DNA of 25,540 bases, from positions 1-25,540 of the IMG/VR virus record IMGVR_UViG_3300015371_000157. One strand, 5' to 3'. Below, piece by piece: positions 13,074 to 16,116 of the stretch. The translations under genes were made by a program, and so were the position numbers. This stretch comes from a virus. Position 1 is the first letter of the stretch; each line of letters starts with the position of its first letter. The notes under the pieces are model-generated. The model saw only the letters and a program-made list of their open reading frames with translations. It had not been told where the DNA came from and did no database searches.

Positions 13074-13305
13074 GGCATTCACACGCGCAGAGGCCGAGGT
13101 AGTGGTTGTTCGTGGCGTCCATGACACCCTGGGTGCACTTGTCGCAGGCGGGAAGCTGGAGTTGCTTGCGCTGGTCGGCGATCCAGTCGCCTTCGGGGTC
13201 GTGGCAGACGAAAGCGTCGATCTCGGCCCTCCTCGCTCCGGCGTTGACCCAGTTACCACGCGAGGCAGTTTCTGCGCCTTCGTTCGGAGGGCCGAGCTTG
13301 TTCAC
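13057..13305 (-). CDS. Cysteine-rich small protein (82 aa)
   Basis: The GTG at 13305 is 42 bp left of attP, with AAGG about 10 bases upstream. The C-terminal half has ACDKCTQGV and LCACECHD, a CxxC and CxCxC set that could bind zinc. The middle holds FVCHDPEGDW. I do not recognise the family. It is the first gene after attP in the leftward direction, so in a prophage it would be the first phage gene next to host DNA at that end. Confidence 0.6.
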   Translation of the reverse strand: MNKLGPPNEGAETASRGNWVNAGARRAEIDAFVCHDPEGDWIADQRKQLQLPACDKCTQGVMDATNNHYLGLCACECHDNAR

Positions 13306-13341: not shown

Positions 13342-13353
13342 TTTTCCCTGCTA
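13342..13353. repeat. 12-bp direct repeat at attP, left copy
   Basis: TTTTCCCTGCTA here recurs exactly at 13405-13416, 63 bp away. The likeness extends to 20 of 26 bases (through CGGG). The left copy enters the tRNA anticodon loop; the right copy begins just after the tRNA end. They could be integrase-binding arm or core sites. Confidence 0.7.
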
Positions 13354-13404
13354 AGCGCGTTTTCGGGTTGGCACGGAACGCGGGTTCGATTCCCGCCGCC
13401 TCCA
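13348..13404 (+). other. attP: attP: 3' half of a tRNA-Ser(GCU) gene
   Basis: The anticodon loop CTGCTAA (13348-13354, anticodon GCT) is followed by stem strand GCGCG. Next is a long variable arm, TTTCG/CGGAA with an 8-base loop (13361-13378). Then come the T arm GCGGG-TTCGATT-CCCGC (13380-13396) and an acceptor strand CGCCTCC plus A. The 5' half of a tRNA is absent: no matching GGAGGCG acceptor strand and no D arm. This is the normal form of a phage attachment site that rebuilds a host tRNA gene after insertion. It lies one small gene from the integrase. The type II variable arm and GCU anticodon identify serine. The discriminator A is unusual for tRNA-Ser, where G is normal. Confidence 0.9.
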
Positions 13405-13416
13405 TTTTCCCTGCTA
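13405..13416. repeat. 12-bp direct repeat at attP, right copy
   Basis: This is the exact partner of 13342-13353, starting at the base after the tRNA discriminator position. Together the repeats bracket the tRNA half. Confidence 0.7.
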
Positions 13417-13439
13417 TTCGCAACGTCGGGATGGAACAT

Positions 13440-13616
13440 TCAAACTTCGCCCTCTGCGTAGGTGTCCCAAGCCATCTCGAGCCAGCCATCGGCGAGGCGC
13501 AGGAACGAGTCGGCGAAGTGCAACGACCAGGCGTCACCCTCGACGATCGCCCTGGCCGCCCGCTCTTGGCATTCCACGGTTTTCGCGAGTGCTGTCAGGA
13601 TCAACTGAGGCGTCAC
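13440..13616 (-). CDS. Small protein between integrase and attP (58 aa)
   Basis: The GTG at 13616 overlaps the integrase stop (GTGA). The protein is helical: TPQLILTALAKTVECQERAA, RAIVEGDAWSLHFADSFLRL, ADGWLEMAWDTYAEGEV. Excisionases are often small, lie beside int and attP, and are co-translated with int. This one lacks a visible winged-helix or MerR-like motif and is acidic at the end, so that role is only a possibility. I recognise no family. Confidence 0.65.
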   Translation of the reverse strand: MTPQLILTALAKTVECQERAARAIVEGDAWSLHFADSFLRLADGWLEMAWDTYAEGEV

Positions 13617-14800
13617 TCGTCGTCCTCCTCGTCCCTGTCCATCGCCCTGAGCGCAGCGGCAAGATCGACCGTGTCGAGGTCTGCGTAGATCGACGTCGTT
13701 CGGATGTCCTTGTGACCCAGCAGACGCTGGGTGAGCTTCAGGTCGTGGTGGGCGCGTTGGACGGCCCGGCCGGCGGTGTGGCGGCCGCGGTGCATGTTCG
13801 CCCCGGCGGTGACGCCTTGCTCGACGAACCCGGAACGGGCGAGACACCGGTACCACCAGCGGTGAACCGTCTGCACGCTTGGCCGCTGGTCGCTATGCGT
13901 CCGGGTCATCACGTTCGCGTATCCGACCGGGGCGCCCTTAACCAGCAGGATCTCCTCCGCGTGCTCGAGGTCGACGCGGCGGCGGCGGGTGTCCTGCCGG
14001 TAGACGAGAAAGTCGTCCGGTTGGAGACCGACCTCCGGTAGCTCGAGTTCGCCGAGGCGACGCCAGAACGACGGTTCGACGATCGGCACCGGGTACACCC
14101 GACCGTCCTTGGTGTGGACGGTCAGCTCGCGGAGCTCGAAGTCGAAGTGCTTCAGCTGGATGTTCCAAATCCCGGAGCGGCGGAGGCCGTAGTAGAGGAT
14201 CAGGAACGCGAGTAGCCAGTCGACGACGTAGTCCTGCGCGGCCAGCACCCGTTTGATGAAGTCGTTGTTGAACGTCTTCCGGTCAACGTCCCTCATCTTC
14301 GGGATCGTCAGCGCCCTGGCGGGGTTGCCTGGGATCAGCCCTTCGCTGATCGCCCAGTCGAAGAAGGTGACCCAGATCGACCGGATCTTCTTCTTCGTCC
14401 TGGCGCTAGTCGGTGTGCCCTGCGGGGTCGTCGCCCAGTGACGGGCGAGACAGGTGCGGAGCAGCTTGATCCCGGCCGGCGGCGCGAAATCGACGACGTC
14501 GAGGGTGGGATTGTCGAGGGCGATGTGGGCCAAGGGCGGCTCGTAGTCGCGGAGGCTGTCGGGGCGGGCGCCTCTCTCGTGTTCGAACCAGTCCATGAAC
14601 TCGGCGACGTGGGCGCCGAACGGTGTTTGCTGGTACCGCTTGTCAAGCACGGGGTTGTCCAGGATCGCCCTGGCCTCCGCGAGCGTGAACCGCTGTTTCG
14701 TAAGATCCGCAGTGCATAGGAGCTGATTCCTCCTGTGTCGTGCCCCGGGCGTTTCGGCGCTGCGGGGCTTTTTGTTGTTGTTCAGGAGGTTACCGCTCAT
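13613..14800 (-). CDS. int: Tyrosine-family integrase
   Basis: The protein has 395 residues. I chose the ATG at 14800, which has CTGGAG 7 bases upstream and overlaps the zinc-finger gene; longer extensions would overlap three small genes. Residues 35-165 form the SAM-like core-binding domain (HVAEFMDWFEHERG, KKIRSIWVTFFDWAISEGL). The catalytic domain shows Arg in YYGLRRSGIW (R207), Lys in HTKDGR (K231), HRGR (H337, R340), LLGHKD (H363) and the nucleophile in SIYADLD (Y372). It integrates the circular genome at the tRNA-Ser gene. It is coded in the leftward series that starts at the Cro-like gene, with no promoter of its own visible. Confidence 0.95.
   Translation of the reverse strand: MSGNLLNNNKKPRSAETPGARHRRNQLLCTADLTKQRFTLAEARAILDNPVLDKRYQQTPFGAHVAEFMDWFEHERGARPDSLRDYEPPLAHIALDNPTLDVVDFAPPAGIKLLRTCLARHWATTPQGTPTSARTKKKIRSIWVTFFDWAISEGLIPGNPARALTIPKMRDVDRKTFNNDFIKRVLAAQDYVVDWLLAFLILYYGLRRSGIWNIQLKHFDFELRELTVHTKDGRVYPVPIVEPSFWRRLGELELPEVGLQPDDFLVYRQDTRRRRVDLEHAEEILLVKGAPVGYANVMTRTHSDQRPSVQTVHRWWYRCLARSGFVEQGVTAGANMHRGRHTAGRAVQRAHHDLKLTQRLLGHKDIRTTSIYADLDTVDLAAALRAMDRDEEDDE
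14742..14773 (+). terminator. Plus-strand terminator hairpin inside the 5' end of int
   Basis: GCCCCG and CGGGGC (14742-14747, 14763-14768) form a perfect stem followed by TTTTT on the plus strand. It lies antisense to integrase codons 11-20. No plus-strand gene ends here. After integration, transcription of the host tRNA-Ser gene would enter the phage on this strand at 13405, so this hairpin could stop it before the immunity region. Confidence 0.6.
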
Positions 14801-15138: not shown

Positions 15139-15293
15139 CGGCGGATGGTCTTGATCGTCGCGGCGTGGTCACGGGCCGCCTGTGGGGTCGGGAACTCCCA
15201 TAGAGCCTCGTGGCCGCAGCGGTGGCATTCGTCGGGCTGGGATGGTTGGCGCCAGAGGTGGCCGCAGAGGTCGCAGACGTAGAACCGGATCAC
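15135..15293 (-). CDS. Zinc-ribbon microprotein (52 aa)
   Basis: The GTG at 15293 overlaps the Cro-like stop (GTGA). The frame reads MIRFYVCDLCGHLWRQPSQP, then DECHRCGHEALWEFPTPQAA, then RDHAATIKTIRR. CDLCG and CHRCGH give a compact rubredoxin-like zinc ribbon that fills most of the protein. The C-terminal helix is basic. The function is unknown. It is the second gene after the leftward promoter and so probably expressed early. Confidence 0.65.
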   Translation of the reverse strand: MIRFYVCDLCGHLWRQPSQPDECHRCGHEALWEFPTPQAARDHAATIKTIRR

Positions 15294-15511
15294 TTCGGCT
15301 GGCCACCGTTGAAGTAGCTGGGGGGCCGGCCGAACACCGCGCCGAGCAGCCGCCGATATTTCGGGCCTGGCAGGTTGCGACCGTGTTCCCAGCGTTTGAC
15401 CATCCGCGGCGACGTCTTGAGGATCCGGGCGAGCTCGGCTTGGCTCAGATCAAGGTCGTGGCGAGCGTCCTTGATCCGGTCTGCGATGGTTTGCGGGTCC
15501 CCCCCGACCAT
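15290..15511 (-). CDS. Cro-like XRE-family regulator (73 aa)
   Basis: I chose the ATG at 15511. An earlier ATG (15538) lies in the middle of the operator and a TTG at 15577 lies beyond it. The helix-turn-helix fills most of the protein: IADRIKDARHDLDLSQAELA, RILKTSPRMVKRWEHGRNLP. The recognition helix PRMVKRWE is close to VRTVKRWE of the divergent repressor, so both probably read the same site. Position, direction and size suit a Cro-type control gene heading the leftward operon with int. Confidence 0.8.
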   Translation of the reverse strand: MVGGDPQTIADRIKDARHDLDLSQAELARILKTSPRMVKRWEHGRNLPGPKYRRLLGAVFGRPPSYFNGGQPK

Positions 15512-15522
15512 GATGGGGCCAG

Positions 15523-15528
15523 AGACTA
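15523..15528 (-). promoter_or_regulatory. Candidate -10 box of the leftward early promoter
   Basis: TAGTCT on the minus strand fits TAnnnT and lies 11 bases before the ATG at 15511, giving an almost leaderless message. It abuts the palindromic operator (15529-15550), which would cover the -20 to -35 area. No standard -35 box is clear. Confidence 0.45.
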
Positions 15529-15550
15529 TGTCCCCCATAATCCGGGGACA
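15529..15550. promoter_or_regulatory. Palindromic operator between the two regulators
   Basis: TGTCCCC and GGGGACA face each other across 8 bases (near-symmetric CATAATCC). A third half site TGTCCCC sits at 15635-15641, directly before the repressor GTG. The site is where a Cro/repressor pair with matching recognition helices would bind to control both leftward and rightward starts. Confidence 0.75.
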
Positions 15551-15629
15551 AGGGGTCCGTTTCTGTTTCGTCCGCAAAGAGCGCGAAGCTCGTGCTGGGC
15601 CTTAACACACCCGCCAACCTGTTTGTCAC

Positions 15630-15635
15630 TAGAGT
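15630..15635 (+). promoter_or_regulatory. Candidate -10 box for leaderless repressor transcript
   Basis: TAGAGT is followed by 7 bases and then the GTG at 15643. This is the spacing of leaderless messages common in actinobacteria. The operator half site TGTCCCC overlaps its end, so binding would block initiation. A TTAACA at 15602 is 22 bases upstream, too far for a standard -35. Confidence 0.5.
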
Positions 15636-15642
15636 GTCCCCT

Positions 15643-16116
15643 GTGACCGCCGAAGAGGAGCTTCTGCGGCTTCCGATCGGTGACCGTATCCGTTATGTGC
15701 GGCGTGAAATGTTGGGCGTCAACCAGGAGGCATTCGCGAAGCGTGTCGGCGTGTCGGTGCGTACCGTGAAGCGCTGGGAGGCCAGCTTCATCGCCCCGAC
15801 CAGGGACAAAGCGGAGAAGATCGCTGCCCTAGCGAATCTCGCGAGCGAGTTGTTTTACCCGGACGAGAGTGTCGAGGCGGAGCCGATCGTCGAGATCCGG
15901 GAAATGCTGACGACGCTGGGCGAGACGATCACCAGCCTCGAGGAGACGTTTACCGCCGTGTCAGAGCGGATGGTCGGAACGCTGGCCGAAATGGAGACTC
16001 AGCTTGCTCAGCAGACCAGTCTTCTTGCTCGTCAGACCGCCCTCCTGGAATTACTCGAAGCGAAGGTTGCGGCGGATCAGCCGAAACCACGGCGAGCACG
16101 GAGGCAGAAGTCGTAA
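15643..16116 (+). CDS. Putative immunity repressor: XRE domain plus coiled coil
   Basis: The protein has 157 residues from the GTG at 15643; the frame is open to 15592 but there is no ribosome site there and the -10 box fits a leaderless start. Residues 10-65 are an XRE helix-turn-helix (IRYVRREMLGVNQEAFAKRV, GVSVRTVKRWEASFIAPTRD). Residues 80-142 are a long amphipathic helix, IREMLTTLGETITSLEETF then MVGTLAEMETQLAQQTSLLA, likely for oligomerisation. The end is basic (PKPRRARRQKS). There is no LexA/S24 peptidase, so it would not be inactivated by RecA-stimulated cleavage. It is divergent from the Cro-like gene across a shared operator and is the only regulator on the plus strand. Confidence 0.8.
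   Translation: MTAEEELLRLPIGDRIRYVRREMLGVNQEAFAKRVGVSVRTVKRWEASFIAPTRDKAEKIAALANLASELFYPDESVEAEPIVEIREMLTTLGETITSLEETFTAVSERMVGTLAEMETQLAQQTSLLARQTALLELLEAKVAADQPKPRRARRQKS

Follow-up and report, generated by a model that had tools for sequence, protein, structure and literature searches.

In the account given of the Islander database, the attP of an integrative element carries part of the RNA gene that it targets and thereby restores this gene, while the fragment displaced from the host lies at the other end of the element; tmRNA is described there as more enriched among integration targets than any tRNA isoacceptor type (PMC4383910). The Bifidobacterium breve prophages Bb447phi1 and Bb1192phi1 are reported to have inserted at the 3' end of tmRNA; their common core, 26 bp long, takes in the T arm (PMC6109161). 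For mycobacteriophage Ms6, which targets a tRNA-Ala gene, the description gives a 26-base core running from the T loop to the 3' end, the 7-base T loop as the likely site of exchange, and A as the discriminator base (PMC1762012).

The virus record IMGVR_UViG_3300015371_000157, analysed here over its whole length of 25,540 bases (the window), shares 27 identical bases between its two ends, from which the genome is most likely complete and circular. It encodes the large terminase, portal, protease, major head and tail proteins, an endolysin, a tyrosine integrase and HTH regulators, a gene content that fits, as expected, a temperate tailed phage of 25.5 kb. The tyrosine integrase (13613–14800, minus strand; 395 aa with the ATG taken as start; PF00589, E 3.7e-12; phrog_1 integrase, E 1.4e-28) shows R, K, HxxR, H and Y motifs at residues 206, 229, 337, 361 and 370, which we presume to have the roles of these motifs in such enzymes. 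Further on lie a repressor-like HTH protein (15290–15577, minus strand; HTH_3 and phrog transcription regulators) and a divergent HTH regulator-like protein (15592–16116, plus strand; HTH_3). The integrase gene adjoins a segment, 13342–13437, which we hold with high confidence to be the attP of this temperate tailed phage, whose core duplicates the 3' end of the tmRNA gene of the host and so allows insertion without breaking that gene. Just to the left of it is a perfect 11-nt inverted repeat (13222–13232 and 13286–13296), possibly a terminator or a binding site.

The attP core and its flanking repeats

The common core (13378–13404, plus strand) comprises two bases, then the T stem and T loop, the 3' acceptor strand CGCCTCC and the discriminator A; it is not followed by CCA. 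A cmscan search with positions 13342–13404 placed the tmRNA family RF00023 at the top of its clan (E 2.3e-9), a rank that refers to the best of the clan, as lower-scoring matches of the tmRNA clan were left out of the output. At the Rfam gathering thresholds the whole window gave no RNA match, as expected of a fragment. In a sample of 299 genomes from the class of Gaiella sp. FR_16 (Thermoleophilia), BLAST with the 63 bases of 13342–13404 found matches in 162 genomes, and among the matches listed most start at query position 37 or 38 and reach position 63, which corresponds to 13378 or 13379 to 13404 of the window. In many Thermoleophilia genomes the tmRNA 3' end agrees with the core at 27/27 positions. 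ARAGORN identified tmRNA in 17 of the 20 BLAST loci fetched and tRNA in none; of the other three, L044 resembles the 3' part of an uncalled tmRNA, and L046 and L048 resemble displaced fragments. The core is derived from the 3' end of a bacterial tmRNA (ssrA) gene, and only 13378–13404 is derived from host RNA. Halomonas phage vB_HmeY_H4907 contains, at 40376–40403, 28 unannotated bases that match the core region with 96% identity and are perhaps another attP of the tmRNA type.

The core is bordered by two direct copies of a 33-nt repeat, the left at 13342–13374 and the right, beginning TTTTCCCTGCTA, at 13405–13437, directly abutting the core (both on the plus strand). The copies are identical at 25/33 positions, and among 25,444 positions compared at a spacing of 63 this is the only one that reaches 25. 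A corresponding pair is found in related viruses, at 26/33 in G001, 21/33 in G004 and, weakly, 15/33 in G003; G002 resembles an attL, in which only the right copy is visible. The heptamer TCCCTGC follows the core at equal distance in four viral and four genome loci, all of these loci having been chosen with patterns that include the heptamer. The repeats most likely serve as arm sites for integrase binding. One locus (L007) that matched a pattern for the repeat only, without the core and without an integrase match, was dropped as a chance match.

Competing identities of the RNA fragment

The preliminary description had taken the fragment for the 3' half of a tRNA-Ser(GCU), 57 nt long and beginning at the anticodon loop. 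It had read the letters correctly (CTGCTAA at 13348–13354, the T arm GCGGG-TTCGATT-CCCGC, the acceptor strand CGCCTCC and the final A at 13404), and its statement that the 5' half is missing holds as well: ARAGORN finds no gene, and the 400 nt upstream contain no 5' acceptor strand of the GGAGGCG type. That an attP with a 3' fragment of an RNA gene lies beside a tyrosine integrase is, very probably, also right; the gene that it named is not, since the fragment is of tmRNA. The resemblance behind the name is real, for CTGCTAAG and the T arm resemble those of a tRNA-Ser(gct) of the class (in L077), which aligns with the whole 57 nt with 42 identities over 56 aligned bases and four gap positions. 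The same tRNA is identical to the core at 20/27 positions, compared with 27/27 for tmRNA, and the common core extends over 27 nt, not 57. The remaining stretch, 13348–13377, which had been read as anticodon loop and long variable arm, matches a Gaiella tmRNA at 13/30 positions and serine tRNA poorly too, and therefore belongs to neither RNA; most of it is contained in the left repeat, and CTGCTAAG in the window is replaced by CTGCTGAG in the relatives G001 and G004 and by CTGCAAAT in G003. As judged from these alignments, its tRNA-like look is a chance resemblance within a phage repeat, and T-arm similarity and a phage repeat may together mimic half a tRNA. The discriminator A, considered odd in the preliminary description, stands where a serine GCU tRNA should have G; A is normal for the alanine-type acceptor of tmRNA and hence ordinary here, the fragment being of tmRNA and not of serine tRNA. 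A tRNA-Ser(GCU) pattern with the window T arm and the acceptor CCGCCTCC, in which CTGCTAAG is followed after 20–45 nt by GGGTTCRANTCCCGCCGCCTCC, was present in 0/299 class genomes, although a looser tRNA-Ser(GCU) pattern, used as a positive control, was present in 88/99. By the criterion that the preliminary description itself had set, the serine GCU reading is thus already refuted for the sampled class, and we consider it extremely improbable overall; the predicted host site is corrected from a serine tRNA to tmRNA.

A target in tRNA-Ser(UGA), whose 3' end is close to GCCGCCTCC in some Thermoleophilia, would account for the weaker BLAST matches, which contained tRNA-Ser(tga) in five of the six regions fetched (84–90% identity over 30–38 nt), the sixth being a displaced fragment in G205. 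These matches, however, stop before the final A and have several mismatches, as opposed to 27/27 for tmRNA, and we give this target almost no credence. Both serine readings are also at odds with the position of the related integrases that adjoin the core: the integrated relatives expected at tRNA-Ser(GCU) are located at tmRNA instead. A different kind of alternative is that the fragment is not, or not only, an attP, but a small phage RNA consisting of the tRNA-like domain of tmRNA alone and acting as a decoy. There is a precedent in mycobacteriophage DS6A, which is described as carrying little beyond the tRNA-like domain, and a similar molecule is reported to inhibit tmRNA (PMC4131195). In the window and three relatives (4/4 phages), however, no GGAGGCG-type strand that could pair with CGCCTCC occurs within 400 nt upstream, and the predicted fold, in which the acceptor strand stays unpaired, scores no better than shuffled sequences do (z -0.57), on which grounds the decoy was rejected. 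The location beside the integrase is, moreover, explained by an attP, and a decoy seems to us a most implausible reading of the fragment.

Related integrases, integrated elements and the host

With the fragment read as the attP core of a tmRNA-targeting phage, its counterparts can be followed in other genomes. Homologous integrases were found in four related viruses (74, 68, 49 and 49% identical), each of which has the same 26-nt core close to the integrase, and in G002 tmRNA-like host sequence lies upstream of the core. The exact 56-mer of the window gave no matches in the viral and genome contigs searched. An ARAGORN tmRNA call in locus L002 was judged spurious, as the called gene combines the fragment with upstream sequence of no relation to it and has a tag unlike those of the host tmRNAs. 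We also observed that the provirus IMGVR_UViG_3300005529_000081, which has tmRNA sequence at its left end, contains at its right end (L020, 1000–1497) a second tmRNA-like gene, cut by the contig end, with the acceptor end GGCTCCA and what looks like a tag of 32 residues (ANDNDRS...NVLVAA); this second gene is possibly phage-encoded.

Thermoleophilia genomes, a Gaiella among them, have related integrases directly downstream of tmRNA genes. Four loci on genome contigs matched the core with TCCCTGC, and in three of them an ARAGORN tmRNA ends at the core. When the 299 class genomes were searched with an integrase profile and loci were taken for the best match of 30 genomes, the core was present in six of the nine best loci (L059, L061, L062, L063, L066 and L067 among L059–L067) and in none of the next 21 (L068–L088). 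G008 was itself among the six rows of the profile, so its match is not independent. ARAGORN found tmRNA in five of the six core-bearing loci, and a second integrase gene of G185 (L097) adjoins both tmRNA and core. The family is not always found at tmRNA, because another, fairly close G185 integrase (on C234, 254 bits) adjoins tRNA-Cys; as further exceptions, no core was found near the G182 integrase, and in G236 the core is about 2.4 kb away from it. Some more distant integrases are located near other tRNAs (Cys, Glu, Met, Gly, Lys and Ser). Integrases of the wider family in L060 and L071 lie beside tRNA-Cys, which suggests target switching between tRNA-Cys and tmRNA.

Four genomes carry both the tmRNA-side core and a displaced copy on the same strand: G008 (174911/180428, 5.5 kb apart), G234 (103222/107068, 3.8 kb), G274 (22821/17013, 5.8 kb, the far copy having one mismatch) and G012 (43190/1149, 42 kb). 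In all four ARAGORN detects a tmRNA at the near end, so that these related integrated elements display a restored tmRNA together with a displaced fragment. The G012 element is a prophage, as seen from its genes for a portal of the Mu type, a tape measure protein and an F-like protein, the last with a match just below the curated cut-off. In Gaiella sp. FR_16 the last gene of the 5.5-kb stretch between the two core copies encodes a methionyl-tRNA synthetase (L038, 10888–12402), which would be an unusual cargo if this stretch is a mobile island. Another pair of core copies, 2.1 kb apart in G205 (L096; C25, 26437 and 28567), has near-identical terminator-like sequence after each copy, and suggests a small or decayed element at tmRNA.

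We propose tentatively, with less than even confidence, that in Thermoleophilia one tyrosine-integrase lineage has specialised on the T arm of tmRNA and is common to quite different elements, namely the 25-kb phage, the 42-kb prophage with a Mu-type portal and islands of about 4–6 kb. In its phages the attP would be unusually compact, with a repeated integrase site immediately on each side of the 27-nt core. Our literature searches, which were not aimed at this lineage, found no description of it.

The host is likely a member of Thermoleophilia and probably Gaiellales-like. Searched against 396 genomes of the phylum, the window integrase has only two matches that pass 1e-20, in G008 and G012, which also belong to the Thermoleophilia sample. 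As the portal protein has only weak relatives in the class (9/299 genomes, 33% identity at best), the host assignment rests on the integrase and the core. Phage-host links in Thermoleophilia seem scarce, and attP and integrase together would tie uncultured soil phages to this class.

Proposed integration and comparison with described systems

We infer that this phage itself integrates; no integrated copy of it was seen in the genomes and viruses searched. The integrase would recombine the core with the same sequence in the host chromosome. Strand exchange would most likely take place in the 7-base T loop, a placement (the exact crossover base included) that we base on analogy with mycobacteriophage Ms6, in which the core of 26 bases and the 7-base T loop are both important. 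The 5' part of the host tmRNA would then be completed by the 3' end borne by the phage, so that trans-translation would survive, and the displaced 3' fragment of the host would come to lie at the opposite end of the prophage. In the predicted integrated junction, TTTTCCCTGC follows an intact tmRNA whose last base is 13404; the identity of the attP provides a ready test for lysogeny.

The arrangement is like that of the tyrosine-integrase islands and prophages at tmRNA described in Islander, with the gene restored and a displaced fragment at the far end; it differs from the cases described there in its integrase lineage, which is found in Thermoleophilia and soil viruses, and in the 33-nt repeats on both sides of the core (PMC4383910). 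With Bb447phi1 and Bb1192phi1, as they are reported, it shares an actinobacterial setting, the tmRNA 3' end as target and a core that contains the T arm, but the host class is another (PMC6109161). As in the description of Ms6, the core runs from the T loop to the 3' end and the discriminator is A, whereas the target is tmRNA instead of tRNA-Ala (PMC1762012). Integration at tmRNA is already established, and the present phage is a further case of this known habit.
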